Assembly (NCBI RefSeq): GCF_036227405.1
Contig: NZ_CP109473.1
Location: 6,510,001 to 6,574,000 of the forward strand
Length of the DNA: 64,000 nt
Reading direction: 5' to 3'
Source of the DNA: Streptomyces sp. NBC_01460
GTDB taxonomy: Bacteria > Actinomycetota > Actinomycetes > Streptomycetales > Streptomycetaceae
Position numbers and translations under genes: made by a program. Shown piece after piece: positions 17,788 to 49,660 of this stretch (positions are counted from its first letter, which is position 1; each line of letters opens with the position of its first letter). The notes beneath the pieces were generated by a model, which saw only the letters and a list, made by a program, of their open reading frames with translations, did no database searches and had not been told where the DNA came from.

Positions 17788-17803
17788 TCAGATGTCCCGG
17801 AAG
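17788..17803 (+). repeat. putative att core, left copy (attL)
   Basis: TCAGATGTCCCGGAAG, identical to 35935-35950 and to the last 16 bases of the murA coding strand at 49645-49660. It is followed by arm sequence B, but on its left there is no copy of arm A, as expected for the chromosome side of an integrated element. Confidence 0.75.
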
Positions 17804-17936
17804 GGACCCGTCGCTCAGCTGACCTGCAGGAACGATCGATATCAGCCTCTGACCTGGGGAAATGGCCTTTCGCTTGTTTCACACTTGTGCCCCTTGATGC
17901 GGCCGAAAGTCCCAGGAAAGTCCCAGAGGGCTCCCA
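17804..17936 (+). repeat. att arm B, copy 1
   Basis: Related to 35951-36084 in the same orientation. The best match runs from GACCTGGGGAAATGG to two AGTCCCAG copies ten to eleven bases apart (GAAAGTCCCAGGAAAGTCCC) and ends GGCTCCCA. Tandem short repeats next to a core resemble the arm-type sites of tyrosine recombinases. Confidence 0.7.
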
Positions 17937-18154
17937 AGGAGACCAGGCGTTCTTTCCAGGTCATGCGGGCTGTGCCGCGCGGCGTCTGTCGGCGTGGCGG
18001 CCGCGGGGTACTTCCTGGGGGCAGCCATGGCTGATGTTCCTCTCATGAGAACCATCTGACCCCCTGTCAACATCCTCCGCATCTCGGAGGAACCTCAGGT
18101 GCGCCGGGGCCGTCAGGGCAGCGTGCTCCGGCGGTCCTCGACCACCTCACGCGG

Positions 18155-18340
18155 TCAGTCGATGTCCGGATCGTGGGTCTCTTCGAGTAAACGGCCTGCC
18201 AGGTCGTCGGCCCATTCCAGGGCTCAGGTGCGAAGCGCGGTGATGGTGGAGTCATCGAGCCCGTAGGCGGCGAAGGCTTCGTCGTCGGTCCACTCCGCGC
18301 CGGTGAGATGTGCCTGCAGGTCCTCGCGCTCGAAGAGCAC
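18155..18340 (-). pseudogene. small protein gene with an in-frame stop
   Basis: From a GTG at 18340 the frame reads LFEREDLQAHLTGAEWTDDE, then AFAAYGLDDSTITALRT, a TGA at 18224-18226, then ALEWADDLAGRLLEETHDPD and a final stop at 18155. The acid-rich text on both sides of the stop reads as one protein of about 61 residues, so the TGA is probably a mutation. The family is unknown. It lies between the left att site and the Rieske gene. Confidence 0.5.
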
Positions 18341-18437
18341 CAGGCGTGACGGAGCGCCTGACGCCCCGCCGTCATCCGAACCGCCCCGTCCTCCCGTCCG
18401 GCGAGGCCCCCGCCCCCGGCTTCTCGGAGCGGCCAGG

Positions 18438-19532
18438 CTACGTCACCCTGCTCTCCGCTTCCCCCGCCGCTCCCCGCATCACTGACGACGGCACCCGCGC
18501 CCGCAGCCGGTCCGGCGGGTAGAACTGCCGGGCCCAGTGGCGGAACGGGCCGATCGGGCCGTCGCCGCGGGCCAGCCGGGGCGGAGACACGTACCGCTTC
18601 GTCGCCCAGACCGGGAAGTCCTGGGACACGAAAGCGCAGTTGCCCCGGAACATCACACCCGCCAGCAGCCGGTGTGCCGAGCCGCTCACCCAGCGGGCCA
18701 GCGGGGCCGGGAGGGCGGCCGGCTCGGCCACCTCGAAGCGGCTCGTCTGGCGCAGCTGGAAAGCCGCGGGCGCGATCATCGTGGTCGTGTATACGGCACA
18801 GGTGCGCACCCCGAACCGAGGGAGCGCCGTGCACACGTGCACCCGGCTGATCCCGTTGCCCTCCAACATCACCTCCAGCGGACTCGCGCCCAGCAGCGGC
18901 ACCCGCTCCTCGGAGCGCACCGAGATCCGGAAGGACCGCCCCTCGAAGACCGCCGGCTCGGCTACCTCCGACGCGCCCCAGCCGTGCAGCGGCGTGAAGT
19001 GCCCGATGTCCACCGTGTTCTCGACCACGTCCTGGCTGTGTCCCGCCATCTCCCACGCGGTCAACCGTGGCGCCCGCGTCCCGAGCGTGTGCCAGGGCGT
19101 GAGCTCCCAGTCCGGCGCCCGCCCGTCGTGGTGCCGCCACACGAAGACGGCGCCGTCGACCTCGCGCACCGGCAACAGGGTCAGATCCGAGGACGGCGGC
19201 GGGGGCGTGCCGTACCCCGTCCGCGTGCAGGCGCCGTCCGGGCCGAAGGCGAAGCGGTGGAAGGAGCACAGCAGTTCGTCGCCCTCCAGCGCGCCGAGCC
19301 CGAGGTGCGCCCCCAGGTGCGGGCAGTACGGGCGGACCGCCCGCACCTCGCCGTCGCGGAGCCGGTAGAGCACCACGTCCTCGCCCTGGAGCGGCCGGGT
19401 CAGCAGCGCCCCCCGCACCACCTCCGAGGAGAACGCCACCGAGAACCAGCCGTCGGGGTACGGCAGGACTGGCTCGTGCGCGTCGGCCGGGCTCGGGCCC
19501 TCCGTGAGCGCCCGGGTGTGGCCGCGCCTCAC
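18438..19532 (-). CDS. Rieske non-haem iron oxygenase in the PTM cluster
   Basis: 364 residues. Rieske [2Fe-2S] motif: Cys70-x-His72 (YCPHLGAH) and Cys89-x2-His92 (LCSFHRFAF). The catalytic domain has the mononuclear iron triad pattern D-x2-H-x4-H in ENTVDIGHFTPLHGW (Asp175, His178, His183), closest in style to steroid 9-alpha-hydroxylase (KshA)-type enzymes. Such enzymes hydroxylate or desaturate with O2 and need a separate reductase, which is not in the cluster. The GTG start overlaps the upstream stop by four bases (GTGA). It is the last gene of the PTM operon, in the slot where a cytochrome P450 (FtdF/IkaD type) is usual, so it is the likely late tailoring enzyme of this macrolactam. Confidence 0.9.
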   Translation of the reverse strand: MRRGHTRALTEGPSPADAHEPVLPYPDGWFSVAFSSEVVRGALLTRPLQGEDVVLYRLRDGEVRAVRPYCPHLGAHLGLGALEGDELLCSFHRFAFGPDGACTRTGYGTPPPPSSDLTLLPVREVDGAVFVWRHHDGRAPDWELTPWHTLGTRAPRLTAWEMAGHSQDVVENTVDIGHFTPLHGWGASEVAEPAVFEGRSFRISVRSEERVPLLGASPLEVMLEGNGISRVHVCTALPRFGVRTCAVYTTTMIAPAAFQLRQTSRFEVAEPAALPAPLARWVSGSAHRLLAGVMFRGNCAFVSQDFPVWATKRYVSPPRLARGDGPIGPFRHWARQFYPPDRLRARVPSSVMRGAAGEAESRVT

Positions 19533-20584
19533 AGCTCGACCAGCACCTTGCCGAAGGACGCCGCGCGGTCGGTGTACAGGCTGCGGTAGGCGACGGGAAT
19601 GGAGTCGAAGCCGTGGTGCACGGTCTGCTGGTAGCGGATCTCGCCGGCGCGCACCAGCGGCCCCAGCTCGGCGTGCAGCGCCGCCCACTTGTCCTCGGTG
19701 AACCACTCCAGCGCGAAGATCCCGCGGATCGTCGTGCGCGGGAACATGATGTACGGCAGCAGCCGGGGCCCGGTCCACTCGCCGCCGACCTGGCTCGCCC
19801 ACTGCCAGCACACCGCGACCCGGCTGTCCACGGTGAGCATCGTGAAGACGGCGTCGGTCATGACCCCGCCGAGGTTGTCGAAGTACCGGTCGACGCCGCC
19901 AGGAGCCGCCTTCGACAGGTCCTCGCTGAGCTGCGCAGGGTCCCCGCCGTGCCGGAAGACGACGACGGCGTCGAAGCCGAGCGCCGTCAGCCGCGCCGCC
20001 TTCTCCGGCGAACCGGTCGTGCCCACCACCCGCGCGCCCGCCCGCTTCGCCAGCTGCCCGACCAGCGTGCCGATCGCGCCGGACGCGCCGCTGATCAGGA
20101 CCGTGTCGCCGGTTCGTACGGCCAGGAAGGTGGTGAGGGCGCCCCACGCGGTCATCCCGGCGCCGCCGAGGATGCCGAGCGCGGTACTCAGCGGCAGCGC
20201 CTCGTCGTAGTGGGCCGGGTCCAGCTTCCGGTACGCGGGGAAGACCATCGGGAACGTGCCGGTCTGCCACAGCGCCCCCGCGCCGTTACTGACCAGGTGG
20301 GTGCGCCAGCCGCCGAAGCCCTGCACGAGGTCCCCGACGCCGAACATCGCCCGCGGTCCGGCCGCCAGCACCTCCATGATCGAGTCGGCGCCCATGTGGT
20401 CGCCCATCGGGGTGTCCAGGGCGATCCCGTGGAGGTACGGGTCGACGGAGACGTACCGCGTGCGCAGCAGCATCTCGTCCTCGGCCAGGTCGGTGTCGAG
20501 CTCCTCCACCACCTTCACGTACATCCGGTCCACGTCCGGCACGCCGTCGTTGTGCTCGCTGACGATCCACTTCTCGGTCTTCAC
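19529..20584 (-). CDS. ftdE: MDR-family NAD(P)H reductase, FtdE/IkaC type
   Basis: 351 residues of the zinc-independent medium-chain dehydrogenase/reductase group (quinone-oxidoreductase/prostaglandin-reductase-like): GILGGAGMTAWGAL, the Rossmann motif SGASGAIGTLVGQLAKRAGA and VDRYFDNLGGVMTD. In PTM pathways this enzyme closes a carbocycle by hydride transfer (IkaC makes the inner five-membered ring of ikarugamycin; its relatives form the six-membered ring in 5-5-6 systems). GTG start at 20584, overlapping the stop of the preceding gene by four bases. Confidence 0.9.
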   Translation of the reverse strand: MKTEKWIVSEHNDGVPDVDRMYVKVVEELDTDLAEDEMLLRTRYVSVDPYLHGIALDTPMGDHMGADSIMEVLAAGPRAMFGVGDLVQGFGGWRTHLVSNGAGALWQTGTFPMVFPAYRKLDPAHYDEALPLSTALGILGGAGMTAWGALTTFLAVRTGDTVLISGASGAIGTLVGQLAKRAGARVVGTTGSPEKAARLTALGFDAVVVFRHGGDPAQLSEDLSKAAPGGVDRYFDNLGGVMTDAVFTMLTVDSRVAVCWQWASQVGGEWTGPRLLPYIMFPRTTIRGIFALEWFTEDKWAALHAELGPLVRAGEIRYQQTVHHGFDSIPVAYRSLYTDRAASFGKVLVEL

Positions 20585-22239
20585 GGGGTCGCTCCTGCGG
20601 GTTCGATGAGTTGTACGGGGAGAGGGGCGCTGCCGTCGACGGAGGCGGTGAACGGCCGCCCGTCGTCGCGGCAGACGAAGTGCATGACGTGCCGTCCCGA
20701 GGCCGCGGCCCGGATCAGGCCGCCGGTGGTGGCCCAGACGCCGGACAGATAGAAGTCCGCGAGCCCCGGCAGTCCCGGACCGTGTCGCTTGACCTCCTGC
20801 TCCACGGTCTCGCCGCTGTCCACGAACGGCTGCCAGCCGAGCACCGTGCCGTCGTAGTTGCCGGTGTAGCGGACCTGGGTGAGCGGGGTGGACACGTCCC
20901 GCACCACGATCGCGTCCCGCAGCCCGGGGTGCCGCTCGTCGAGGAAGTCCACGATCGTGTCCCGCACCTGCCGCTTGGCCCGCTGGTAGTCGCGCCCGCG
21001 CCCGACCGGCAGCGTGTGCAGCTCCTCGCCGCGGCGGATCCGGGTGAACTGCTCGGGACCGGTGCTCAGCTCCCTCCACGGCGCGATGTCGCAGAAGTAC
21101 GTGGCGTACACCACGGAGGTGCCCGGCGGCGACAGCTCCGGGTAGTGGCGGCTGCGGAACTGCACGTTGACGCTGGGGTGCCGGATGCCGGTGAGCCGTT
21201 CCGCGACCGCGTCCTCCAGGAGGTACGTGGTGCAGGGCTCGCCGTCCGGGAAGGGCCGGCGCAGCCCCAGGAAGACCGTGAGGTAGCCGGGGAAGACCAT
21301 GTCGGGTTCCGCGATGGTCCGGGTGTACAGCTCCCGGTACGTGTCGGTGAGGTAGCGGCCCTTCAGCAGGTCGAGGAGCGTGGTGCGCCCGTCGCAGGCG
21401 GAGACCACGATGTCCGCCCGCAGCTCCGTGCCGTCGCTCAGCCGGACCCCGGCCGCCCGGTCGTTCTCCACCAGGATCTCCACGACCCTGGCGTTGTAGA
21501 TGACCTCGCCGCCGAGCCCCCGGTAGCGCTCCTCGACCGAGCGGGCCAGGCCCAGCGAGCCGCCCTCGGGGACACCGGCCGAGGCGTCGGCGTGCGCCGC
21601 GAGCTGGAAGTAGAACGGCAGCACGGGGAAGTTGGGATGCTTCTCGTACAGGATGAAGTTGAACGCCTCGCGCAGCAGCGGGTCCTGGAAGCGCTGCGAG
21701 TAGTCCCGCATCAGCGTGCCGATGGAGCGCCGGATCACGTTGAAGTAGGGGACCAGGGACGCCAGCATCCGCCAGCGCTCCAGGCGGCCCATGAGCCCGA
21801 CCGGGGTGAGGAACGGGTAGCGGGCCAGTGCCTTGCGGAAGGTCCGCAGCCCGGCGCAGAAGTCGCGGATCACCCGGGCGTCGCCGGGGGAGAGTGCGAG
21901 CAGGTGCGCTTCGAGGCGGTCCGGATCGGAGTAGAAGTGGACCGCCCGCCCGTCCCGGCCGCGCACCGTGTTGAACACGTCGAAGTTGCGCATCCGCTTG
22001 CCCTGGAGCGCGCCGAGCTCCAGCCAGATCTGGTGCATCTCGTTGCCCGGCCCGCTGCCGAGCAGCCAGCTCACACAGGAGTCGAGGGTGAAGTCGCCCC
22101 GGTCCCAGGCCGTGCAGGAGCCGCCCGGGATCTCGTGCATCTCCAGCACCCTGCTGCGATAGCCGTTCATCTGGGCGTAGCAGCCGGTGGAGAGCCCGCC
22201 GAGCCCTCCGCCGACGATCAGCATGGTCCTTCTGGTCAT
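20581..22239 (-). CDS. ftdD: FAD-dependent phytoene-desaturase-like cyclase, FtdD type
   Basis: 552 residues. N-terminal dinucleotide-binding motif LIVGGGLGGLSTGCYAQMNG, then LEMHEIPGGSCTAWDRGDF, and the C-terminal CrtI/NAD(P)-binding Rossmann ending with SGVWATTGGLIRAAASGRH. In PTM clusters two such enzymes act on the polyene to form the first carbocycles. It shares clear sequence identity with its upstream neighbour, so the pair arose by duplication. ATG start at 22239 overlapping the upstream TGA (ATGA). Confidence 0.9.
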   Translation of the reverse strand: MTRRTMLIVGGGLGGLSTGCYAQMNGYRSRVLEMHEIPGGSCTAWDRGDFTLDSCVSWLLGSGPGNEMHQIWLELGALQGKRMRNFDVFNTVRGRDGRAVHFYSDPDRLEAHLLALSPGDARVIRDFCAGLRTFRKALARYPFLTPVGLMGRLERWRMLASLVPYFNVIRRSIGTLMRDYSQRFQDPLLREAFNFILYEKHPNFPVLPFYFQLAAHADASAGVPEGGSLGLARSVEERYRGLGGEVIYNARVVEILVENDRAAGVRLSDGTELRADIVVSACDGRTTLLDLLKGRYLTDTYRELYTRTIAEPDMVFPGYLTVFLGLRRPFPDGEPCTTYLLEDAVAERLTGIRHPSVNVQFRSRHYPELSPPGTSVVYATYFCDIAPWRELSTGPEQFTRIRRGEELHTLPVGRGRDYQRAKRQVRDTIVDFLDERHPGLRDAIVVRDVSTPLTQVRYTGNYDGTVLGWQPFVDSGETVEQEVKRHGPGLPGLADFYLSGVWATTGGLIRAAASGRHVMHFVCRDDGRPFTASVDGSAPLPVQLIEPAGATP

Positions 22240-23921
22240 TCGGCCACCGCCGCCTTCCCGGCGTCGCCCCGCTGTTCGAGTCGTGGCAGCCGGCCCAGCT
22301 TCCCGGGATGCCACGGCCCGGCACCCTCGCTCGGCCAGGCCCGGAACTCCCGGCCCAGCTCGTCGCAGAGGAACTGGACCGCGTACCGGCCGCTGGTCGC
22401 GGCCCGGATCAGGCCGCCCATCCCGGTCCACTGCCCGGCCATCGAGAAGCCGCTCAGCCCCGGCAGCCGCATCCGGTCCCGGTCCACCAGCGCGGTCGAC
22501 ACGTCGTCGGCCTCGGAGAACGCCTTCCAGGCCAGGATGCTGCCGTAGGTGTTGCCGGTGTACCGCTCCGTCGTGGCCGGCGTCGCCACGTCCACCAGCT
22601 CGATCCGCTCCTCGAGGCCCGGATGACGCTCGGCCAGGAAGCCCCGCAGGAAGTCGACGACCTCCTGCTTGCGCTCCCGGTACGCCCGCCGGTCCGCCTT
22701 CCGCAGATCCTGCCAGGACCGGTGGTCGGTGAAGTACGTGCAGTGCAGCACCGACTTCCCGGCCGGCGCGAAGCCGTCGGCGTAGTCGGACCGCCGCTGC
22801 ACCACCAGACTGTGCTGGAGGCTCCCCGGCAGCGCCGCGCCCCGCTCCGGACCGAGGAGGTACGTGGTGCTGTGTGGCTCACCGGCGGGCAACGGGCCGT
22901 CGATCCCGACGAACGCGGAGACCACCGCCGGGTACAGGTTGTCCGGCCGGTCCAGCAGCTCCGTGTACAGCCGCTCGGTGCGCGGGCTGCTCCACCGCCC
23001 CTCCAGCAGCCGGTCCAGCACCGTCGGCCCGTCGCAGGCGGCGATCACATGGTCGGCGAAGTGCTCCTGCCCGTCCCGCAGCCGTACGCCGACCGCCCGC
23101 CCGTCCTCGACGAGGATCCGCTCCACCCGGGCGCGGTAGCCGATGTGCCCGCCGAGCCCCGTGTACCGCTCCTCCACCGACCGGGCCAGACCCAGCGAAC
23201 CACCCTCCGGGAAGCCCGCGTTGCCGTTGAAGGCGCAGGACATCGTGAAGAGGAAGGGGAGCAGCGGGAAGCCGGTCAGCTCTTGGAGGAACATGTTCGG
23301 GAACGCCTGGCGCAGCAGCGGGTCCTCGAAGCGGTCCGCGAACCGGCGCATCGGCGTGGCTGCGGTGCGCCAGTACAGCCGGAACGCCGGCAGGATCGCG
23401 AGCAGCGTTCGCGCCTTCTCCGTCAGGGACTTCAGCGGCGGCGGCTTCAGCTCCCAGTGCGGGGCGAGCCCCGCGAAGCGCCTGAGGTCCCGGCAGAACG
23501 CCCGGATCAGGCGCTCGTCGCCGGGCGAGAGCTCCAGCAGGTGCTTCTGGAGCCGGTCCGGGTCGTTGTAGAACGTGACGGACCGGCCGTCCTCCGTCAC
23601 CACCCGGTTGAACTGGTCGAAATGGGCGATCCGCTTCCCGTCCAGCGCCCCGAGCTCGCGCCACACGTCGTTCGCCCCGGTCCCGGGTGCCGTGCCGATC
23701 AGCCAGTCGATGCAGTAGTCGAAGAGGTAGCCCTGCCGAGCCCAGGCGGTGCAGCAGCCCCCTGGCAGCACGTGCTTCTCGAAGATCCGGCTCTCCAGCC
23801 CACTCATCTGCGCGTAGCAGCCGGCCGCCAGACCCGACATACCCGCGCCGATGATGATCACCCGGGGCCGTCCGCCGGGAGGCCGGGCCTCCCAACGGTG
23901 CCCGCCGTCACGCACGCCCAT
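22236..23921 (-). CDS. ftdC: FAD-dependent phytoene-desaturase-like cyclase, FtdC type
   Basis: 561 residues with the same layout as the next gene: IIIGAGMSGLAAGCYAQMSG, FEKHVLPGGCCTAWARQGY, GGSLGLARSVEERYTGLGG and a C-terminal GQWTGMGGLIRAATSGRYA. The ATG at 23921 is chosen because GGGAGG lies eight bases upstream; GTG 23930 and 23915 are alternatives. The start lies 14 bases inside the end of the PKS-NRPS gene, so translation is coupled. Two FAD enzymes plus one MDR reductase is the gene set of 5-5-6 type PTMs (pactamide, frontalamide, HSAF) rather than the 5-6-5 ikarugamycin set; the ring system is inferred from this only. Confidence 0.9.
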   Translation of the reverse strand: MGVRDGGHRWEARPPGGRPRVIIIGAGMSGLAAGCYAQMSGLESRIFEKHVLPGGCCTAWARQGYLFDYCIDWLIGTAPGTGANDVWRELGALDGKRIAHFDQFNRVVTEDGRSVTFYNDPDRLQKHLLELSPGDERLIRAFCRDLRRFAGLAPHWELKPPPLKSLTEKARTLLAILPAFRLYWRTAATPMRRFADRFEDPLLRQAFPNMFLQELTGFPLLPFLFTMSCAFNGNAGFPEGGSLGLARSVEERYTGLGGHIGYRARVERILVEDGRAVGVRLRDGQEHFADHVIAACDGPTVLDRLLEGRWSSPRTERLYTELLDRPDNLYPAVVSAFVGIDGPLPAGEPHSTTYLLGPERGAALPGSLQHSLVVQRRSDYADGFAPAGKSVLHCTYFTDHRSWQDLRKADRRAYRERKQEVVDFLRGFLAERHPGLEERIELVDVATPATTERYTGNTYGSILAWKAFSEADDVSTALVDRDRMRLPGLSGFSMAGQWTGMGGLIRAATSGRYAVQFLCDELGREFRAWPSEGAGPWHPGKLGRLPRLEQRGDAGKAAVAE

Positions 23922-26900
23922 CCGCGGCACCTCCCGCCAGCAGCGCCCGGACCAGCTCCGCGTTCCCGTCGAGGAACGAGCCGTCGAGCATCTCGGCGTG
24001 CCGCCCGTGCCCCTCGCGTACGGTGCACCCGGCGGCGGTGACCCCGTGCCAGCCGCCGGGCTCGTCCGCCGCGAAGCGGAGCAGCTTCTCCTGGTCGGAG
24101 ATCACCGCGATCGGCGCGCCGAGCACACCGAGCGACGGGTGAGCACCGCAGTGCGCCAGGTACTCGCGGGCCTGCTCCACGGTCTCCCGGGCGACGATCT
24201 CGGAACCGGTGTGCCGCCGCAGGTGCTCCGCGAGCTCCGCCTCGAACTCGGCCAGGTGCTCCTCGCCGAGGGCGACGGCCTCGGCGATCCGGTACGAGTC
24301 CATGATCAGCACGAGGTCCACCGCGCGGCCCCGCCGCTCCAGCTCCCCGGCGATCTCGAACGCGAGGTTGCCGCCGAGGGAGTAACCGAACAGCGTGTAC
24401 GGCCCGCCCGGGTGCAGCTCCTCGGCCAGATCCGCGTACCGGGCCGCCTTGTCCGGACCCGACAGGTAGTTGAACGCGGCGAAGCGGTGCTCGGGCAGCC
24501 GCGCCGCGAGCTGCCGGTACACCAGCCCGTGCCCGCCCGCGGGCGGCAGGCAGAACACCGTCGCCGCCGGATCCGCGCCCGGGTTGAACCACAGGTACGG
24601 CTCGGCGCCGGGCAGCCGCCCGGTGACGACGTCCTCCAGGGTGCGGGCCATGCCGTGCAGGGTGCTGGTCTGGAACAGCCGCCCGACCGGCACGGACGCG
24701 TTGAACTCGGTCCGCAGGTGGTGGATCAGCTCGATCAGCTTGATCGAGCTGCCGCCCGCATCGAAGAAGTCGTCCCGCAGCCCCGGCCGCTCCAGCCCGA
24801 GCAGCGACCGCCAGTGCGCCGCCATCCGCGTCTCGTACAGCGTCACCGGCGGTTCGTACCTCTCCGGTCCCGCCTCCGCGCGCGGCTCCGGCAGCGCGCC
24901 GGGATCGACCTTGCCGTTCGCGGTCAGCGGCAGCGCGGACAGCTCCGTGAAGTGCGCCGGGATCAGATACGTCGGCAGCTGCTCCGCGAGGTGGCGGCGC
25001 AGCTCCCGGGCGTCGGCCACCGCGCCCGGCGCGGGCACGCAGTAGGCGCACAGCACGTTCTCGCCCGTCTCGTCCCGCCGTACCGCCACGCACACCTGCG
25101 CCAGCTCGGGCCGGGCAGCCAGCCGCGCCTCGATCTCCCCGGTCTCCACCCGGTGGCCGCGCACCTTCACCTGCCCGTCGGCCCGCCCGAGGAGGTGCAG
25201 CACCCCCTCCGCGTCCCAGTGCCCGAGGTCCCCCGTCCGGTACAGCCGTACGGGTTCGCCGCCCGGTTCGAGGGTCACGAACCGCTCGGCCGTCCGCTCC
25301 GGATCGCCCAGGTAGCGGTCGGCGACGCCGGCGCCGCCGATCCACAGCTCACCGGCCACCCCCGGCGGCACCGGCTCGCCGTGCCGGTCGAGGACGTACA
25401 GTTCGCTGTTGGGCAGCGGCCGGCCGACCGGCACCATCCGGCCCGGCTCCAGCCCCTCCGCCGGCCCCTCGTAGTAGGCGCTGTCGATGGTGGCCTCGGT
25501 CAGCCCGTACGAGTTGACCACCCGGGTCCCCGGCCCGCACAGCGCGACGAGCCTCCGGTGCTCGCTCGCCCGCCAGGCGTCCGAGCCGACGATCACCAGG
25601 CGCATGAACTCCAGGCCCAGCCCCTCCCGCTCGCAGTGCGCCAGCAGCCCGCGCGCCACCGACGGCACGAACTCGCCGCAGTCCACGCCCTCCGCGCGCA
25701 TGGTCCGGTAGAGCCGCGCAGTGTCGAAGAGGAGGTCCCGGTCGACGAGGACCAGCGTCCCGCCCGAACACAGCGCCCGGACCAGGTCCCCGGTGAACAC
25801 GTCGAAGGAGACGCCCGCCATCTGCAGGTGCACCCGGACGTCGGTGTCCAGCCGGTACTCCTGCTGCCAGGCGACGAACACCGAGGCCAGGTTGCGGTGG
25901 CTGACCCGCACCGCCTTGGGGCGGCCGGTGGAACCCGAGGTGTGGATCACGTATGCCGTCTGGTCGAGGCCCACGGCCGGCTCCGGCCGCTCCTCGGTCC
26001 CCGGCCGGTCCAGCTCGTCGAGGGTGACCGGCCGTCCCGGCAGCCGGGCCGCCTGGCCCCGCCGCCCGTCGGTCAGAACCAGCTTGGCCCCGGCGTTCTC
26101 CATCAGCTCGGCCAGCCGCTCCGCCGGGTGGTCCGGGTCCAGCGGCAGATACGCGCCCCCGGCCCGCCACACCGCGAGCAGCGCGATCACCAGCTCCGGC
26201 GACTTCGCAAGATGCACCGCCACCACCGTCCCGGCGCCGACGCCGCGTTCGCGCAGCGAGGCCGCCACGCGCCGCGAGCGCTGGTCCAGCTCCCGGTAGC
26301 CGAGCCGCCGCCCGCCCGGCACGGACACCGCGACCGCCTCCGGGAACTGCGCGGCGATCTTCCCGATCAGCTCGTGCACCGGCACGTCGTGGTCGAGCCG
26401 TCGGCCGACGCCGCCGAACCCGGTGACGATCCGCTCCCGCTCCCCGGCCCCCAGCATCGGCAGCCGTCCCGCCGGGCGCTCGCCCTCCGCGCGGGTCAGG
26501 CCGTCGAGGAGGTTCCGGTAGTGCGCGGCCATCCGACGCACCGTCGCCGCGTCGAACAGGTCGGTGTTGTACTTCAGCACGCAGTGGAAGCGCCCGTCGG
26601 ACCGGTCCTCGTACGCGGACAGCGTGACATCGAACTGCCCCTCTTCCTCCGGGAGTTCGATGTACTCCAGCGTGTACCCGAAGCGCTCCACGGCCACCTT
26701 GTGGGTGAGCAGGATGAACATCGCCTGGAAGACCGCCGAGCGGCTCGGGTCGTGCTGGAGGCCCAACTGCTCCACGAGCAGCACGAACGGGTACTCCTGA
26801 TTGTCGAGGCCCCCGAGGACCGTGTCCCGCACCCGGCCCAGTAGCTCGGCCACCGACGGCTCCCCGGCCAGGCTCACGTGCAGCGGCAGCGGATTGACGA

Positions 26901-38417: not shown

Positions 38418-38518
38418 CGACAATCTCCTCCGCTGGAGACGATCACGGGTGCTGGCTGCTGGGCACCTGACTGCGGTGGTTGTCCGCCGGCCCGGGCCCC
38501 TGGTTCTTCGTACGGGGA

Positions 38519-38555: not shown

Positions 38556-38572
38556 GGGTTAGCCGGTCCCGG

Positions 38573-39226: not shown

Positions 39227-39307
39227 GGTGCTCTTCCTCCGTGTATGTGGAGATCACAGGCCGACCCCGACCAATGATTTAGGTGCACATGACAGCTTGT
39301 GATGCGG

Positions 39308-39742: not shown

Positions 39743-39839
39743 GTGCGGCATGCCTTTCTGCGCGGGAGGAGGGATTGGGGTGCTGCTGGGCCTGGTCGCG
39801 GGCGGCCCGCTGGGGTGGTGGCCACCCGCGATCAAGTGG

Positions 39840-42215: not shown

Positions 42216-42949
42216 GTTGATGTCCTCTCCTTGATGAGTCGGGGCATGGCCCCCAGGGCGCCCGCCCGGGGCGGGCACGGACACCGCTGGAACAGCTGGA
42301 ACAGCTGTGTGGCGGAGTCATCGGTGCATGCGGTCGCCCGTTGCCGGGGCTGACCGGGGTGCGGCACTCGTCCTGGTCGGCGGTTCGTCTCTCTTTGGGG
42401 GAGCCGGCTGACGGAGTCCACGCGGGGATCATTCGCAGGGCCAGGAGCACAGGACACCGGTCCTGCGAGCGGAGCGAACCGGTCCTGCCCGCCCCGAGGG
42501 GTGAGGGGCTGCAGATGTGGCGGCGACCTGTGACCCAACAGGCCCTGGCTCCGCCCCGGTTGCCGGTTAACTTCCCGTCATTTCTTCCTCGTGTCAATGA
42601 AATGAACAGGATTCTTCGACCTGCGGGGCCAGCGCGTGCATAACAAGATGCACAAAAGACGCAAAGCGACTACGAGTGCCCGGTTGGAGTGGGCCATCAC
42701 GGTTGAGTAACGCGATGTTTTCTTCCTTGACGCACTTAAAGGCTGCGGGACACACTCCCGTCATAAGTAGCGACGCCGACTTCCACAGGTCGATGGCGTC
42801 CCAGCCGCAGGAGGCGCGATGACGATCTCTGCAACGCTTGGCAGTACCGGCCCCGCGCATACGGGAAGCCCTCGCTACCCGCATCGGGTTCGATGGCGCT
42901 GATCTTGATGCAACGGCCCTGACAGACCACTACCTGGAGGCACCGCGTG
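42216..42949. promoter_or_regulatory. 733-base divergent region between dextranase and ROK genes
   Basis: No convincing ORF. 42540-42740 is AT-rich for this genome (GTTAACTTCCCGTCATTTC, CAATGAAATGAACAGG, CATAACAAGATGCACAAAAG), suitable for promoters in both directions. GCAAAGCGACTAC near 42660 resembles half of the GCAAAGTCACTAA site upstream of the GH13 gene. Confidence 0.55.
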
Positions 42950-44131
42950 ATGAGCCCGTCCAAGATCCGGTTCTCGGAGCTTGTCAGTGAGCAGACCAGG
43001 GCGGAGATCTTCGCGACCGTGCTCACCGCAGGACCCATCTCGCGCACCCAGCTCGCCCAGCGCCTGGGCCTCGTGCCCTCCTCTGTCACCCGCATGCTGC
43101 CGCCGCTGCTCGAGCATGACTACCTGCGTGAGAGCGACCCGGTTGCCCAGGGGCGGGGCAGGCCGCAGAAGATGCTGCACGTCAATCCCGACAAGCACGT
43201 GGTCGTCGGCATGAAGATCGCCCCCGGACGGGTCTTTGGCGTCGTCACCGACATGGCGGCCAACGTCCTGGCCCGGGACGAGGAGCCCCTGGCCGACTGC
43301 ACCCCCCAGACCGCCCTGTCCGCCGCCGCCTCCCTGACCGGCAGGCTCCTCGCAGAGGCGCCCGAAGCGGCGGACAGGGTGCTCGGCCTCGGCGTCGGGG
43401 TCAGCGGCCACGTCGATTCGGCAGCCGGGATCTGCCGCTACTCGGCCCTGCTCGACTGGAACAAGGTCGACGTGGCCGGGCCCCTGCGGGAAGCGACCGG
43501 GCTGTCGGTGGTCGTCAACAACGACGTCAACACCCTGGTCGTCGCCGAACGCTGGTTCGGCGAAGGCCGCGACATCGATTCCTTCGCTGTGGTCACCGTC
43601 GGCCCCGGCATCGGCTGCGGCCTGCTCCTGGACGGCGCCCTGTTCTCCGGCGCCACCGGACTCGCGGGCGAACTCGGCCACCTTCCCCTGGACCCCTCCG
43701 GACCCATGTGCAGCTGCGGCCGACGCGGTTGCCTCGAAGCCCTGGCGGGCGACCGCGCCATCCTGCGCCACCTCGCAGACGGCGGATTTCCCTGCGACAC
43801 GATCACCGACGCCATCGAGCTCGCGCGAGGCGAAGCCGGGGCGGCCCGCACCGTGGCCCGATCCGCCTTCGCCGAAGCCGGCACCGCCCTCGGCAGAGGC
43901 GTGGCCGGCATGTGCAACCTGCTCAACCTGCAGAAAATCATCATCGCCGGCGAAGGCGCGGTCGCCTACGACCTGTTCGGCCCGCACATGAGCGAGGCGA
44001 TGCAAGCCCAGGCGTTCTCCACCGCGGCCACCGACTGCGACATCCACGTCGACCCCGCCCGCCACGACCTCTGGGCCCGGGGCGCCGCCTGCCTCGTCAT
44101 CCGCGACACCGTGGGCGCGGCCATCTCCTGA
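42950..44131 (+). CDS. ROK-family transcriptional regulator of the glucan locus
   Basis: 393 residues. N-terminal winged helix (TAGPISRTQLAQRLGLVPSS, VTRMLPPLLEHDYLRE), a sugar-kinase-like ROK domain with VVNNDVNTLVVAERWFGEG and the zinc motif CSCGRRGCLE at about residue 250. ROK repressors of this type respond to sugars or sugar phosphates. The ATG at 42950 has GGAGG nine bases upstream; the GTG at 42947 is an alternative. It lies between the extracellular dextranase and the uptake/hydrolysis operon, so it probably regulates both. Confidence 0.9.
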   Translation: MSPSKIRFSELVSEQTRAEIFATVLTAGPISRTQLAQRLGLVPSSVTRMLPPLLEHDYLRESDPVAQGRGRPQKMLHVNPDKHVVVGMKIAPGRVFGVVTDMAANVLARDEEPLADCTPQTALSAAASLTGRLLAEAPEAADRVLGLGVGVSGHVDSAAGICRYSALLDWNKVDVAGPLREATGLSVVVNNDVNTLVVAERWFGEGRDIDSFAVVTVGPGIGCGLLLDGALFSGATGLAGELGHLPLDPSGPMCSCGRRGCLEALAGDRAILRHLADGGFPCDTITDAIELARGEAGAARTVARSAFAEAGTALGRGVAGMCNLLNLQKIIIAGEGAVAYDLFGPHMSEAMQAQAFSTAATDCDIHVDPARHDLWARGAACLVIRDTVGAAIS

Positions 44132-44174
44132 CCCACAGCGCCCGCCGATGCTGCGGCAACCCATCACCCGCAAA

Positions 44175-44189
44175 GTCACTAAAAGTAAC
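44175..44189. promoter_or_regulatory. candidate ROK operator before the GH13 gene
   Basis: GTCACT-AAA-AGTAAC, inverted repeat with one mismatch, 12 bases before the ATG at 44202. Bound protein would block the start of the operon. Confidence 0.5.
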
Positions 44190-44201
44190 CATGCGAACAC
44201 T

Positions 44202-45947
44202 ATGAGGTTTGACGTGCCCGAAATCGAAGCCAATCCCGCCGACGCCTGGTGGAGCGAAGCGGTGGTGTACCAGATCTACCCCCGCAGCTTCGCGGACTCG
44301 AACGCGGACGGCATCGGCGACCTGCAAGGCATCATCGAACGGCTCGACTACCTGGCCCAGCTGGGCGTCGACGTCCTGTGGCTGTCCCCTGTCTACCCGT
44401 CCCCGCACGACGACAACGGGTACGACATCAGCGACTACCAGGACATCGACCCGCTCTTCGGAACCCTCGCCGACTTCGACCGGCTCCTGGCAGCCGTCCA
44501 CGAGCGCGGCATGAAGCTCGTCATGGACCTGGTCGTCAACCACACCTCCGACGAACACCCCTGGTTCACCGCCTCCCGCAACGAAGGCCCGCAGGGCGGC
44601 AAGCGGGACTGGTACTTCTGGCGCCCCGCCCGCGAGGGCATGGAGCCGGGCACCCCGGGTGCGGAACCCAACAACTGGGGCTCCTTCTTCTCCGGCCCCA
44701 CCTGGACCTACGACGAGAAGAGCGGCGAGTACTACCTGCACTTGTTCTCCCGCAAGCAGCCCGACCTCAACTGGGAGAACCCCACCGTGCGCCAGGCGGT
44801 CTACGCCATGATGCGCTGGTGGCTCGACCGGGGCGTCGACGGCTTCCGCATGGACGTCATCAACCTCATCTCCAAGACCCCTGGCCTTCCCGACGGCATC
44901 GTGCACGAGGGTGCCTTGCACGGGGACGGCAGCCCCCACTACATCTGCGGCCCCCGCATCCACGAGTACCTGGCGGAGATGCACCGTGAGGTCTTCGAAG
45001 GCCACCCTCGCCGCCTGCTGACCGTCGGCGAAATGCCCGGAGTCACTGTCGGGGACGCCAAGCTGTTCACCGACCCCTCCCGCCGCGAGCTCGACATGGT
45101 GTTCCAGTTCGAGCACGTCGGCCTCGACCAGGGACCCAGCGGGAAGTTCGATGTCCGTCCGCTGAAGCTGACCGCCCTCAAGGCCAGCCTCGGCCGCTGG
45201 CAGACCGGCCTGGGCGAGACCGGCTGGAACAGCCTGTACTGGAACAACCACGACCAGCCCCGTGCCGTCTCCCGCTTCGGCGACGACAGTCCCGCCTCCC
45301 GCGACCGCTCCGCGAAGCTCCTCGCCACCGTGCTCCACCTGCACCGCGGGACCCCTTACGTGTACCAGGGCGAAGAGCTCGCCATGGCCAATAGCCGTTT
45401 CGCCTCCATCGATGACTTCCGCGACATCGAGTCCCTCAACTACCACCGCGAGCAGACCGCCCACGGTGTCGACGAGGAACAGGTCCTGGCCGGACTTCGG
45501 CACCGCAGCCGGGACAACGCCCGCACCCCCATGCAGTGGGACACCTCCCAGCACGCCGGCTTCACCGCTGGCACCCCGTGGATCGCGGTGAACCCCGATC
45601 ACACCCATGTCAACGCCAAGGTCCAGCTCGCCGACCCCGACTCCGTCTTCCACTACTACCGCCGCCTGATCGCCCTGCGGCACACCGAGCCCGCCCTCAC
45701 TCACGGTGACTTCCACATGCTGCACCCCGACCACGAGCAGCTCTATGCCTTCACCCGCCACGACGCGGCATCCGGCACCGAACTGCTGGTCCTCGCCAAC
45801 TTCAGCGGAGCCGACCTCACCGTCGACCTGCCCGACGGCTGGGAACACAGCGAGACCCTCATCGCCAACGTCCCGGCCTCCACACCTCTCACGGCCCCGC
45901 ACACCCTGCAGCCCTGGGAAGCCCGTGTCCACCGCCGCAATACCTGA
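44202..45947 (+). CDS. GH13 oligo-1,6-glucosidase / glucan 1,6-alpha-glucosidase
   Basis: 581 residues. Conserved GH13 regions: DLVVNHTSDEHPW (I), GVDGFRMDVINLI with the nucleophile aspartate (II), TVGEMPG with the acid/base glutamate (III) and WNNHDQPRAVSRFG (IV). The sequence after region II and the Val-to-Val pattern of GFRMDVIN fit subfamily 31 enzymes that cut alpha-1,6-linked isomalto-oligosaccharides. No signal peptide, so it works in the cytoplasm on imported oligosaccharides. Start uncertain: ATG 44202 has no ribosome site; GTG 44214 has GAGG six bases upstream and may be real. Confidence 0.92.
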   Translation: MRFDVPEIEANPADAWWSEAVVYQIYPRSFADSNADGIGDLQGIIERLDYLAQLGVDVLWLSPVYPSPHDDNGYDISDYQDIDPLFGTLADFDRLLAAVHERGMKLVMDLVVNHTSDEHPWFTASRNEGPQGGKRDWYFWRPAREGMEPGTPGAEPNNWGSFFSGPTWTYDEKSGEYYLHLFSRKQPDLNWENPTVRQAVYAMMRWWLDRGVDGFRMDVINLISKTPGLPDGIVHEGALHGDGSPHYICGPRIHEYLAEMHREVFEGHPRRLLTVGEMPGVTVGDAKLFTDPSRRELDMVFQFEHVGLDQGPSGKFDVRPLKLTALKASLGRWQTGLGETGWNSLYWNNHDQPRAVSRFGDDSPASRDRSAKLLATVLHLHRGTPYVYQGEELAMANSRFASIDDFRDIESLNYHREQTAHGVDEEQVLAGLRHRSRDNARTPMQWDTSQHAGFTAGTPWIAVNPDHTHVNAKVQLADPDSVFHYYRRLIALRHTEPALTHGDFHMLHPDHEQLYAFTRHDAASGTELLVLANFSGADLTVDLPDGWEHSETLIANVPASTPLTAPHTLQPWEARVHRRNT

Positions 45948-46017
45948 CCAGCCCCACCTGAACACCCGTACCGCCTCCCCCCGCACCGCCCTGACCCTGC
46001 ACACCCAAGGAATCCTC

Positions 46018-47340
46018 ATGACGAACATGCGCTTCCGTGCTCCGCGCCGCACCACCCGACGAGCTCTGCTCGCCGTGTCCGCTCTGGCACTCGTGGCACC
46101 GCTGACCGCTTGCGGCGGCGGATCGGACACCGCCGAGGGAGACGGCAAGACTCTGCGCCTGTGGCACTACGAGCAGGAGGACGGCGCCCTGAGCAACGCC
46201 TGGGACTCGGCCATCGCGGAGTTCAAGAAGACCCACCCCGACGTGAAGGTCGTCTTCGAACGCAAGACGTTCGAGCAGATACAGCAGAACGCCGGCATGA
46301 TCCTGAACTCCGACAAGGCGCCCGACGTCATGGAGTACAACAAGGGCAATGCCACCACCGGACTGCTCGCCAAGCAGGGCCTGCTCACCGACCTTACCTC
46401 CGTCGCGAAGGAACGCGGCTGGGACAAGAAGATCAGCGAGAGCGCGTCCGTCACCGCCCGCTACGACGCCAACGGCGAAATGGGCGGCGACAAGTGGTAC
46501 GGCGTCCCTAACTACGGCGAGTTCGTCCTCGCGTACTACAACGACGACCTATTCAAGAAGCACAACATCACCAAGCCCACCGACCTCCAGAGCTTCGAGG
46601 CCGCCCTGGCCGACTTCAAGGCCGCCGGGATCACCCCGCTCGCCAACGCCGGCAACGACCACCCCGCCGGCCACTGGCTCTACCTCCTGGCCCTGGCCAA
46701 GGCGAATGACGCCTGGGTCGACGACTACCAGCTCTACAAGGGCAAGGTCGACTTCCACGGCCCGGAGTGGACCTACGCGGTCGAAACGTACAAGGACTGG
46801 CTCGACAAGGGCTACTTCGAGAAGAAGGACGTCGGCCTCAAGGGCAGCGACATGACCGAGCAGTTCGTCTCGCAGAAGCGCCCGATCATGGTCGGCGGCA
46901 ACTGGTGGTTCGGCGGCCTGACCACCGACATCACCGACTTCACCTGGTCCACCGCCCCCTACCCCGGCAGCAAGAAGACCCTCGGCTCCGGCGGCAACCA
47001 CTGGGTCGTGCCCACCAAGGCGAAGAACAAGAAGCTCGCCGAGGACTTCATCGACATCACCATGTCGGACAAGATCCAGAAAATCCTCGGGGAAGAGGGC
47101 AACGTCCCGCTCGCTGTGAAGCCGGACTCCATCGAAAACCCCAAGTCCCGCGAGCTCATCACCGCGTTCAACACCTACCAGGACGGCAAGGGGCTCGCCT
47201 TCTACCCGGACTGGCCGGCACCCGGCTACTACGACACCTGGATGGGCGCCACCCAGAACCTCATGAACGGCGGCAAGCCCCACGCCGTCCTCGACGAGCT
47301 CAAGGCCCCCTACGAGAAGTACACCGCCACCCGGCGCTGA
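46018..47340 (+). CDS. lipoprotein sugar-binding protein of ABC importer
   Basis: 440 residues. Signal peptide with lipobox LTAC (Cys32), so it is lipidated and held at the outer face of the membrane. The rest is a cluster B/MalE-like binding protein: TLRLWHYEQEDGALSNAWDS, FEQIQQNAGMILNSDKAPD, KWYGVPNYGEFVLAYYNDDL, QFVSQKRPIMVGGNWWFGGL. Starts 70 bases after the GH13 stop with AAGGA at seven bases, and is followed by two permease genes. Aromatic residues (Trp, Tyr) in the pocket region fit an oligosaccharide ligand, likely isomalto-oligosaccharides by context. Confidence 0.92.
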   Translation: MTNMRFRAPRRTTRRALLAVSALALVAPLTACGGGSDTAEGDGKTLRLWHYEQEDGALSNAWDSAIAEFKKTHPDVKVVFERKTFEQIQQNAGMILNSDKAPDVMEYNKGNATTGLLAKQGLLTDLTSVAKERGWDKKISESASVTARYDANGEMGGDKWYGVPNYGEFVLAYYNDDLFKKHNITKPTDLQSFEAALADFKAAGITPLANAGNDHPAGHWLYLLALAKANDAWVDDYQLYKGKVDFHGPEWTYAVETYKDWLDKGYFEKKDVGLKGSDMTEQFVSQKRPIMVGGNWWFGGLTTDITDFTWSTAPYPGSKKTLGSGGNHWVVPTKAKNKKLAEDFIDITMSDKIQKILGEEGNVPLAVKPDSIENPKSRELITAFNTYQDGKGLAFYPDWPAPGYYDTWMGATQNLMNGGKPHAVLDELKAPYEKYTATRR

Positions 47341-47434
47341 GACTGACCCGCCCGAACCCGCGCGTCAGTCCCTTCTTCCCGGGGACGGCGGCCCGCCCGC
47401 ACCGGGCCGCCGTCCCGCCCCTCTTGGAGCAACA

Positions 47435-48328
47435 GTGAAAACCACACGTCACCCGCGGCCCACGGGATACGCCGTCTTCCTCGCCCCCGGCCTGCTACTG
47501 AGCCTGCTCTTCCTCGTCGTCCCGCTGGTGATGACCTTCTACTACAGCCTCACCCAATGGCAGGGCGTCGGAGAGCCCACCTGGATCGGCTTCGACAACT
47601 ACACCCGACTCTTCAGCGACGCCGACTTCTGGGCCTCGTTCCGCAACATCGCCTTCGTCATCGTCGGCATCGCCGTCGTCCCCACCCTGCTCGGGCTCTT
47701 CCTCGCCGCCCTCCTGTTCGACTACATCGGCAAGAAGCACGGAGACGGCTTCGTCAGCCTCTTCCGCTCCGGCCTCTACCTCCCCCAGGTCATCCCCGTC
47801 GCCGTCACCGGGCTGATGTGGGGCTGGATCCTCGCCCCCGAAGGCGCCGTCAACAGCGTCCTCGAAAAGATCGGCCTGAACTCCCTCGCCCAGAACTGGC
47901 TCGGAGACCCCGACTTCGCCCTGTGGATGGTCCTCGCCGTCCTCGTCTGGATGCAGCTCGGCTACCCCCTGGTGCTGTTCCTCTCCGGGCTCCAGCGCAT
48001 CGACCCCGAACTGTATGAAGCCGCTTCCCTCGACGGCGCCACCTGGTGGCAGCGCTTCACCCGCATCACCGTGCCCATCCTGCGGCCCGAGGTCTACGTC
48101 GTCCTTGTCACCACCACCATCGCCGGCCTGAAGGTCTTCGCCCAGATCTTCGTCCTCACCGGCGGCGGCCCCGGCAACTCGACCCTCGTCCCCGCGTACT
48201 TCGCCTACCAGAACTTCTTCGAGCGCGCCGACGTCGGATACGGCTCCGCGATCTCCAGCACGATCACCCTGCTTGTGCTGATCATCGCCGGAACGATGCT
48301 CACCCGCCAGGCCCGCGAGGACGGATGA
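47435..48328 (+). CDS. sugar ABC transporter permease, MalF type
   Basis: 297 residues, six helices, with the EAA loop EAASLDGATWWQRFTRITVP near residue 195 that contacts the ATPase. GTG start behind GGAG. Its end overlaps the next permease by four bases (ATGA). Confidence 0.92.
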   Translation: MKTTRHPRPTGYAVFLAPGLLLSLLFLVVPLVMTFYYSLTQWQGVGEPTWIGFDNYTRLFSDADFWASFRNIAFVIVGIAVVPTLLGLFLAALLFDYIGKKHGDGFVSLFRSGLYLPQVIPVAVTGLMWGWILAPEGAVNSVLEKIGLNSLAQNWLGDPDFALWMVLAVLVWMQLGYPLVLFLSGLQRIDPELYEAASLDGATWWQRFTRITVPILRPEVYVVLVTTTIAGLKVFAQIFVLTGGGPGNSTLVPAYFAYQNFFERADVGYGSAISSTITLLVLIIAGTMLTRQAREDG

Positions 48329-49242
48329 CCATGACCACGCACACCACTTCCACGGCACCCCCCGGCCACCGGCGCAAAGCGGTCAAGGCTGAAGCGGGTA
48401 AAGCCAAAGCGACGGGCAACCGCCGCAGCCCCGGCTCCTACGCCGTCCTGGCAGCCGTCGCCGTATTCGTCCTCGCGTTCCTGGCGCCCTTCATCGTCAT
48501 CCTGCTCAACTCGTTCAAAACCAGCGCGGACTTCCGCACCAACGGGTCGCTGTCCCTGCCCGCCCAGTGGAACTGGAGCATCATCGCCGAAGTCTGGGAC
48601 CGCGTCGGCTTCACCCAGAAACTCTTCAACAGCATCCAGATCAGCCTCGGCGTCGTTCTCATCGCCGTCCTGCTCGCCCTCTTCAACGCCTACGCCATAG
48701 GCATCGGCCGCATCCGCTGGCGCACCCCCTTCCTCATCTTCTTCCTCGGCGTCAACGTCCTGCCGCAAGAGGGCCTCGTATACCCCATCTACTACCTCTT
48801 CAAGGAGATGGGCCTCTACGACGGGAAACTCGGCTACACCATCCTCGTCGGCATCACCTACAGCGCCTTCGGTACCTACCTCCTCTCCTCCGTCTTTGCC
48901 AGCTTCCCCCGCGAACTCATCGAAGCCGCCTCCATGGACGGAGCCGGCCGATGGACCATCCTGTGGCGCATCGTCCTGCCCATGAGCTGGCCCACCCTCT
49001 CGGTGATGTGCGTCTTCTTCTTCGTCTGGAGCTGGAACGAGTTCCTCTACCCACTCGTCCTCCTCATCTCCAACGATAACCAGACCGTCCCTCTCGGCCT
49101 GTCCGTCATGCAAGGCCAATACACCAGCGACCCCACCTCCATGAGCGCCGCAGCCCTCCTCGGCATCGTCCCCATGGTCGTCTTCTTCCTCATATTCCAG
49201 CGCTCCCTCACCCGCGGTATGACCGCCGGAGCCGTCAAGTAG
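48325..49242 (+). CDS. sugar ABC transporter permease, MalG type
   Basis: 305 residues. After a 45-residue charged N terminus, six helices and the EAA loop EAASMDGAGRWTILWRIVLP. It pairs with the MalF-type permease just upstream, coupled through ATGA. No ATPase follows; the ATPase at 36529-37845 in the same block, or a shared MsiK-type protein elsewhere, would energise it. Confidence 0.92.
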   Translation: MTMTTHTTSTAPPGHRRKAVKAEAGKAKATGNRRSPGSYAVLAAVAVFVLAFLAPFIVILLNSFKTSADFRTNGSLSLPAQWNWSIIAEVWDRVGFTQKLFNSIQISLGVVLIAVLLALFNAYAIGIGRIRWRTPFLIFFLGVNVLPQEGLVYPIYYLFKEMGLYDGKLGYTILVGITYSAFGTYLLSSVFASFPRELIEAASMDGAGRWTILWRIVLPMSWPTLSVMCVFFFVWSWNEFLYPLVLLISNDNQTVPLGLSVMQGQYTSDPTSMSAAALLGIVPMVVFFLIFQRSLTRGMTAGAVK

Positions 49243-49265
49243 CCCATCCGCAACACCCCAAAGCC

Positions 49266-49308
49266 ACCCCGGATCCGGCACGCACCGCCCCGCCGCCGGG
49301 TCCGGGGT
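49266..49308 (+). terminator. hairpin downstream of the ABC importer operon
   Basis: ACCCCGGATCCGGC pairs with GCCGGGTCCGGGGT across a 15-base loop, 24 bases after the permease stop. A second, shorter hairpin CCCCTC-CCGAA-GAGGGG is at 49371-49387. Confidence 0.75.
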
Positions 49309-49402
49309 ACACCCACGCCTGCGGAGGGGCCCGCACCGCACGGCTCGAGCCGGTGACTCATGTCGAATCTCCCCTCCCGAAGAGGGGGGTGGCTGCTGGC
49401 CA

Positions 49403-49644
49403 TGACGCTCGTTTGACGCCCGCAGACGGTAGAGCGGGCCGCTGAGTAGGCTCTGAACTGCGCTTTTCCGGGCCTGCTGGAACCGACATCTTTTCGATGA
49501 CTCATCACGTGAAGAGCGCGGTGCACGGAAGCCGTCGCTCCTGGTTCGAAGTCCCAGAAAAGTCCCAGGGACTCCGTCACACCCCGCCTCGACTCGCATT
49601 TGTGCAGGTCAGAAGGGGTGTGACGGTGTTTCTTCTGCAGGCTT
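49403..49644 (+). repeat. att arm A, copy 2
   Basis: Counterpart of 35685-35934. It runs up to the last base before the murA stop codon, so the conserved 3' flank of murA is element-derived rather than chromosomal. Confidence 0.85.
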
Positions 49645-49660
49645 TCAGATGTCCCGGAAG
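49645..49660 (+). repeat. putative att core at the murA 3' end (attR)
   Basis: TCAGATGTCCCGGAAG encodes the last residues FRDI and stop of the HTH-murA protein on the minus strand. Integration here restores the gene end, the usual habit of tyrosine-recombinase elements. Confidence 0.75.

Follow-up and report, generated by a model that had tools for sequence, protein, structure and literature searches.

How did the last nucleotides of a murA-type gene come to stand at three places in the chromosome of Streptomyces sp. NBC_01460, with a putative antibiotic gene cluster between the first two and a sugar-utilisation locus between the last two? To our knowledge, the movement of antibiotic clusters between Streptomyces chromosomes has mostly been inferred from phylogeny, and the vehicle has seldom been in hand. 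We analysed 64,000 nucleotides of this genome (contig NZ_CP109473.1, positions 6,510,001 to 6,574,000 of the forward strand), here called the window, whose own coordinates are used below. The sequence-only reading had proposed two tandem elements inserted at one attachment (att) site, and this is strongly supported by the arm sites, by an integrase found in relatives and by an empty junction in other genomes. In our reading, two elements have very probably integrated site-specifically, in tandem, at the 3' end of the murA-type gene, and the three repeats would be their attL, an attP-like site in the middle and attR. Measured from core to core, these are island 1 (17788-35950), with the putative polycyclic tetramate macrolactam (PTM) cluster, and island 2 (35935-49660, interior 35951-49644).

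The repeated core is the 16-nt sequence TCAGATGTCCCGGAAG, which occurs exactly and on the plus strand at 17788-17803 (left core, attL of island 1), 35935-35950 (middle core, the attP-like junction of the two islands) and 49645-49660 (right core, attR of island 2, which is the last 16 nt of murA). These three are the only exact copies in the 8.80-Mb genome; with up to two mismatches, the whole genome held nine matches, compared with three for the reversed pattern. Allowing up to three mismatches in the window returned the same three, with a mean of 0.62 in shuffled sequences; 1 of 100 shuffles also reached three, and the count at this stringency is therefore unconvincing by itself. By simple arithmetic with uniform bases, the chance of an exact 16-mer recurring in 64 kb, on both strands, is about 3e-5.

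We aligned the flanks of the cores. Arm A, to the left of a core, is shared by 35790-35951 and 49500-49661 (162 nt at 93% identity; 94% by BLAST), and arm B, to the right, is shared by 17788-17939 and 35935-36087 (76%). The left core lacks arm A, the right core lacks arm B and the middle core has both. The three same-orientation cores, this distribution of arms and an arm A identity of about 93% had all been read by eye from the sequence, and the alignments agree on each. Each arm contains two copies of the 9-nt motif AAGTCCCAG, 11 bp apart, on the plus strand: at 17907 and 17918 in arm B of island 1 (17804-17939), at 35839 and 35850 (pair 35839-35858) in arm A at the right end of island 1, at 36055 and 36066 (pair 36055-36074) in arm B at the left end of island 2, and at 49549 and 49560 (pair 49549-49568) in arm A at the right end of island 2. 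Relative to the core start, and with each copy placed by its second base, the pairs stand at -95/-84 and +121/+132. A tyrosine-integrase attP is expected to have its core flanked by paired arm sites in this way, and we regard the pairs as predicted integrase-type arm sites in an attP-like arrangement.

The same layout was found in other genomes. A complete pair at one of these two offsets stood next to the core in 17 of 20 fetched stretches, from 17 genomes. Some cores had other spacings: -87/-76 at the right core of locus L141, +122/+133 in L130, and -116/-105 in L144 and L145. A scan for a core with up to four mismatches plus at least one near-matching pair gave 45 matches, compared with none in the same sequences reversed; it covered 77 fetched loci (910,120 bases), some of them overlapping and many picked for having such sites. 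A relaxed scan found no att site in the stretches read from genomes G154 and G385 or in the first stretch from G065.

A candidate enzyme for these sites was found in relatives. Island 1 keeps the C-terminal remnant of a murA-type tyrosine integrase at 34752-34948 (plus strand). Its match to Pfam Phage_integrase (E 1.9e-4, 21.7 bits) lies below the cut-off of 27.1, and its DNA is 80-82% identical to integrases adjacent to murA in L052, L097 (S. mutabilis JCM 4400), L111, L116 and L141 (genome G124); full-length open reading frames (ORFs) were read in L097 and L141. When the L097 integrase was searched against 392 genomes of the genus, the matches listed included at least 16 near full-length copies at 84-97% identity; apart from these and three high-identity fragments, all listed matches were at 55% or below. 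We inspected 18 integrase loci at 82% identity or more, namely the 16 and two of the fragments; the third (G139, 84% over residues 192-390) was left out. A core with up to four mismatches lay 103-180 bp past the integrase stop codon in 17 of the 18, while 13 continued into murA and 13 had a short HTH_17 gene upstream. The HTH_17 protein, which scores above the Pfam cut-off and below that of the NCBIfam 'excise' model (21.6 vs 28.8 bits), is probably an excisionase. The family consists of tyrosine integrases of about 390 amino acids that occur across the genus and end beside the core with the same arm sites. No intact integrase was recognised within the islands, where the C-terminal remnant is confined to island 1 and island 2 has none; since only this C-terminus is kept, both islands look non-autonomous. 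Among phages, 478 records matched the integrase, all below 60% identity (25-27% for the eight listed). Fifty plasmid records matched, one of them with a fragment at 91.7% (S. clavuligerus pSCL3) and the others below 60%. As a separate observation, another gene, divergent and weakly matching Phage_integrase, lies upstream of the HTH_17 and integrase genes in L141 (16093-16896) and L097 (13403-14605).

The target gene (49645-51174, minus strand) encodes 509 amino acids with Pfam HTH_3 and EPSP_synthase domains. It passes the NCBIfam murA subfamily model PRK09369 (319 vs a cut-off of 297) and falls below the murA equivalog TIGR01072 (306 vs 393); murA here therefore means a murA-type gene. Its final four codons and the stop codon lie within the core. 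In 75 of 80 named murA loci, all from Streptomyces, the core was found with up to two mismatches, and in 38 it was identical. Since these codons are part of the core, an insertion keeps them in place, and a target in conserved coding sequence would allow a wide host range. Just downstream of murA, arm A contains a terminator-like hairpin (49574-49626, minus strand); the enclosing 116 nt fold at -51.8 kcal/mol (z -4.3), and the same arm at the middle site gives z -2.6. A different hairpin lies in flank C, the stretch to the left of the left core (about 17745-17780; z -2.2 in the window and -4.3 in L058). The elements would seem to bring their own terminator to the end of murA. In S. griseoviridis (L082, 11515-11546) the last 16 nt of murA are doubled in immediate tandem.

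We compared island 2 with the corresponding locus of genome G312. From the middle to the right core the two differ at 110 of 13,716 columns (99.2% identity), with no difference in the right core and one base different in the middle core. The murA gene itself differs at 155 of 1,514 columns (89.8%), and rpoB is 93.1% identical. Just left of the middle core there are 15 differences in 159 columns, and the G312 DNA farther left does not match window 1-35790. This core-to-core identity between different left neighbours indicates that the same unit occupies the same site in two species. Judged from these alignments, island 2 has moved as a unit. Its genes include, on the minus strand, an ATP-binding cassette (ABC) ATPase (36529-37845), a DoxX/DUF417-like gene (37893-38423), LPMO_10 (38573-39226) and GH49 (39840-42284) and, on the plus strand, a ROK regulator (42947-44131), GH13 (44148-45947), a solute-binding protein in ORF 45706-47340 and permeases (47435-48328 and 48328-49242). 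By family membership, this cargo appears to be a polysaccharide-utilisation set that includes parts of an ABC sugar transporter.

Could the cores and arms instead be copies of a dispersed repeat, or pieces of murA that were duplicated and spread through homologous recombination, with no site-specific integration? The copies reach 162 nt at 93% identity, enough for homologous exchange. When the middle site (35780-36290) was searched against the strain's own genome, however, it gave one other good match, at 13162-13309, and the next best had an E value of 0.046; with no further core-plus-arm copies in this genome, the repeat was ruled out as a candidate. In addition, the arm spacing is constant across genomes, an integrase stands at the site in relatives and the identity step at the edge of island 2 coincides with the core. 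We consider this explanation very improbable.

Site-specific integration at murA predicts that the DNA left of the islands should elsewhere join the end of murA directly, a check the sequence-only reading had suggested for the sequence left of 17788. Window 17562-17803, which contains flank C (17562-17787, minus strand), aligns straight across the murA end in 6 of the 80 named loci (L050, L058, L060, L092, L110 and L117) at 74-86% identity, over 159 nt in L060; the junction is partial and shorter in L078 and L100. Flank C is also joined to murA, at 82% identity, in G354, the closest of 11 genomes compared over a 1.8-kb rpoB stretch (98.7%). Over about 240 nt, then, these six loci and G354 have the direct junction.

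Island 1 is less simple. The PTM cluster block (18316-34764, minus strand) contains an ORF with a Rieske domain (18438-20270), two flavin adenine dinucleotide (FAD) oxidoreductases (20581-22431 and 22236-23930), a polyketide synthase-nonribosomal peptide synthetase (PKS-NRPS; 23908-33234) and an FA_hydroxylase ORF (33372-34295), all on the minus strand. The PTM label was given in the sequence-only reading and is based on architecture (PKS-NRPS, two FAD oxidoreductases and a hydroxylase) rather than on a named reference cluster. The NCBIfam search returned no model naming PTM genes, so the label stays putative; the matches, all below cut-off, were phytoene-desaturase-like for the FAD enzymes, OlsE-like for the hydroxylase and sterol-monooxygenase-like for the Rieske ORF.

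The block is 98.7% identical over 16.4 kb to one in genome G178, compared with 93.4% for rpoB and 90.2% for murA, which is evidence for its movement between species. The G178 copy is about 1 Mb away from murA and is enclosed by exact 32-bp repeats of the 3' end of tRNA-Pro(GGG), 22.9 kb apart; a different Phage_integrase C-terminus (36 bits, above cut-off) adjoins this tRNA gene. The G178 locus (G178:C1:103892-126839, L149/L150) is another integrative element holding the same PTM-type cluster. The cluster adjoins tRNA-Pro(GGG) in genome G354 as well, where one copy of the repeat was found. The window sequence switches from PTM flank to murA-type integrase at 34757-34764, the fusion point, where the 8-bp microhomology CGTGTGGG is common to the PTM flank (G178, G312) and the integrase gene (L141, L097). 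At the left edge of island 1, a 281-nt stretch is shared with the PTM flank of G154 at 96%, and parts of it recur at 79-83% in the att-bearing stretches L130 and L146 and also 1.2 kb behind the murA gene of L063. On this evidence the PTM cluster of island 1 is captured cargo, fused to a truncated integrase; its delivery by a murA element is plausible. The claim that both cargoes had been delivered as units at murA therefore stands for the sugar island, through the G312 comparison, and is no more than plausible for the PTM cluster. Islands occurring elsewhere without a core had been named as what would contradict the proposal; such a case was found in part, as the near-identical PTM clusters at tRNA-Pro(GGG) in G178 and G354.

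The site is widespread in the genus. A 316-bp attP-like query matched 115 of the 392 genomes; because two candidates were scored per genome, copies are undercounted. The exact motif CTGGGACTT lay within 100 bp of the murA stop in 14 of the 80 named loci, and 35 of the 80 fell into one single-linkage cluster with arm A of the window, some of them without recognisable arm sites, perhaps through decay. In G124, an element at murA (L141, 740-18886) has an intact integrase and the HTH_17 gene, and the 10 of its proteins that were scanned included an AurF-type N-oxygenase, a nitronate monooxygenase, an O-methyltransferase, and tRNA-synthetase-like, major facilitator superfamily and ABC proteins, so that its cargo looks like a natural-product cluster. 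Other elements had Rhs-like, LysR/amidohydrolase or HTH-peptidase genes, several with no Pfam match.

Four linear Streptomyces plasmids also carry att-like sequence. Between the plasmids of NBC_01201 and Alt3, 99% identity extends through the 11.9 kb before a core and another 0.1 kb beyond it. There the NBC_01201 plasmid has an 8.4-kb unit whose end is marked by a second core carrying both arms; past this unit the match to Alt3 resumes at 95% for 0.5 kb. The unit is bounded by murA-type cores (L235, NBC_01201, 11758-20644; L237, Alt3, 12001-12527). In S. clavuligerus pSCL3 (L234, 8001-8800), the integrase fragment mentioned above is followed by a core with both arms. Linear plasmids may thus act as shuttles for such units.

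Several observations weigh against the reading of two site-specifically integrated elements, and we set them out here. Neither excision nor transfer has been observed, and the case is one of sequence comparison. In the strain's own genome, where 4 of 29 candidates were scored, the integrase search found no close intact copy (best E 2.8e-85; the 16 range from 8.6e-260 to 8.5e-210). In 3 of the 20 fetched stretches (L138, L145 and L146), no complete pair has the exact spacing. Of the four att-bearing plasmids, three were typed as non-mobilizable and one as mobilizable. The PTM cluster was seen at murA in none of the other genomes that could be judged: hydroxylase homologues (51-98% identity, E <= 1e-60) occurred in 40 genomes including this one, and the homologue and murA were at least 0.78 Mb apart in all 14 other genomes with both on one contig; in the remaining 25 genomes the two were on separate contigs, which is uninformative. 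In G244, G354 and G065, arrays are also found at distances of 6 to about 140 kb from murA, which the simple model does not explain. The positions of these arrays are G244:C2:724041-737796, G065:C1:6871621-7014039 and G354:C1:2122991-2160838, and in these genomes flank C adjoins murA.

Further points on the same side concern the left flank, which beyond about 240 nt is collinear with no genome tested. When 40 candidates per genome were scored in seven genomes, window 8000-17800 had no match beside murA except flank C and, in G312, a 148-nt piece; a 4-kb block of it (window 9023-13112) has an 89% match in G178, about 0.4 Mb away from murA. Arrays in G244, G065, G178 and G029 likewise have flank C on their left, and in G244 and G065 it is found at murA as well; C might therefore be an older element's arm. 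On that view, a third and older element would occupy about 13.1-17.8 kb, to the left of 17788; flank C would be its right arm, the array would have three units and its chromosomal edge would be near 13.06 kb. Since the left flanks fail to align beyond about 240 nt, an older insertion may sit there. The 148-nt piece at 13162-13309 (plus strand) is 95% identical to 36131-36276, the distal left end of the island 2 type, has no core or proximal arm, and is possibly the relic of such an element. Barstar-like, IS-like and unknown genes lie between, and genomes that carry flank C share nothing beyond its conserved 240 nt or so except one 256-nt off-register match. Flank C has no arm-type sites, however, no core or arm B was found near 13 kb, and in several lineages C comes directly after murA, as expected of a native 3' flank. 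We think it possible that such a third element exists, with the balance somewhat against it; flank C may be either the native 3' flank or that older arm. A barstar-like gene (13878-14174) lies next to an insertion sequence (IS)-like transposase stretch at about 14196-15087, a reading made by eye.

The last point against concerns the route of the PTM cluster. Its identity to the cluster of G354 about equals the rpoB value given above, which leaves room for relocation within this genome. In such a history, the cluster would already have been in the lineage at tRNA-Pro(GGG) and would have moved within the chromosome, by illegitimate recombination, into a resident murA element. G354 keeps its cluster at tRNA-Pro(GGG), at the strain's own tRNA-Pro(GGG) locus the PTM block is absent and about 1.55 kb of other DNA is present, and the microhomology at the right fusion fits the same history. 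The window cluster is nevertheless slightly closer to that of G178 (98.7 and 99.1% in two long pieces) than to that of G354 (98.4, 98.7 and, at the right end, 96.0% in three pieces), which mildly favours arrival from outside, as does the 79-92% identity that the G354 PTM flanks reach against this genome. Relocation is a substantial alternative, to which we give rather less than an even chance.

For the two tandem elements, we propose the following course of events. Islands 1 and 2 would be units of the cis-mobilisable element (CIME) type, which an integrase supplied by a co-resident autonomous relative would place and move; linear plasmids, some of which have similar att sites, could carry them. 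Among the ORFs scanned, the islands are flanked by att sites, have no integrase or transfer genes of their own and stand beside a related element, as CIMEs do. Of the features of an integrative element, the array has the direct-repeat core and predicted arm sites on both sides, and no intact integrase was recognised in it. An actinomycete integrative and conjugative element (AICE) unites an FtsK-like translocase, a replication initiator and an integrase; no AICE transfer or replication domain was seen among the scanned proteins of the window or the 10 scanned proteins of the G124 element. An autonomous element of the same specificity may mobilise the islands. Island 1 would have arisen when a PTM cluster from a tRNA-Pro(GGG) element was joined into a murA-type element, presumably by recombination at the microhomology, which would have cut the murA-type integrase.

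These results put nameable parts of a vehicle in hand: the core, the arm sites and the intact integrase of relatives, together with their probable excisionase. One island is common to two genomes as a core-to-core unit, and one biosynthetic cluster is found in two different vehicles, which provides a testable route for the movement of an antibiotic gene cluster between species. Tentatively, and as a proposal that we hold to be less probable than not, the murA 3' end could be a genus-wide docking site through which non-autonomous natural-product cassettes pass between species, served in trans by one murA-specific integrase family and shuttled by linear megaplasmids that bear the att sites, with the PTM cluster changing its vehicle by microhomology fusion. 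The murA end and its integrase are also suggested as new integration tools for engineering laboratory streptomycete strains.

The array resembles systems already described. In PAISt of Streptomyces turgidiscabies, three copies of the bacA 3' end serve as att sites, and the internal one splits the island into two modules; PAISt, with PAISs1 and PAISa1, has a tyrosine recombinase at one end, and sedentary copies hold integrase remnants (PMC4057263). The window array shares the three gene-end att copies, the internal att and the integrase remnant. It differs in its site, a 16-nt core at a murA-type gene rather than an 8-bp palindrome at bacA, and in its cargo of a PTM cluster and polysaccharide genes; no transfer gene was recognised among the scanned window proteins, and the array is known here from sequence. 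In TR1/TR2 of scab streptomycetes, a biosynthetic cluster forms a CIME next to an integrative and conjugative element, with an internal att between them, and is transferred only with its partner (PMC8369830). The window array likewise has a biosynthetic cluster in a CIME-like unit beside another element, with an internal att between; TR1/TR2 has an autonomous partner, whereas none was found in the window array, whose mobility is a prediction from sequence. At a tRNA-Arg gene in a Streptomyces population, one to three AICE/DAICE elements accrete between the same flanking repeats, with a decayed remnant (PMC9513070); there the target is a tRNA gene and the elements have AICE backbones, compared with a murA-type gene here. 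The terms 'murA' and 'carboxyvinyl' have no occurrence in the main text of PMC9513070 or PMC3218068, and in the open-access literature we found no report tying Streptomyces islands to murA and, by title, no paper on a PTM island. By its anatomy, the array belongs to a kind already known, the modular tyrosine-recombinase islands at gene 3' ends; what is new, as far as we searched, is the murA site with its arm sites and integrase family, and the PTM cluster's change of vehicle.

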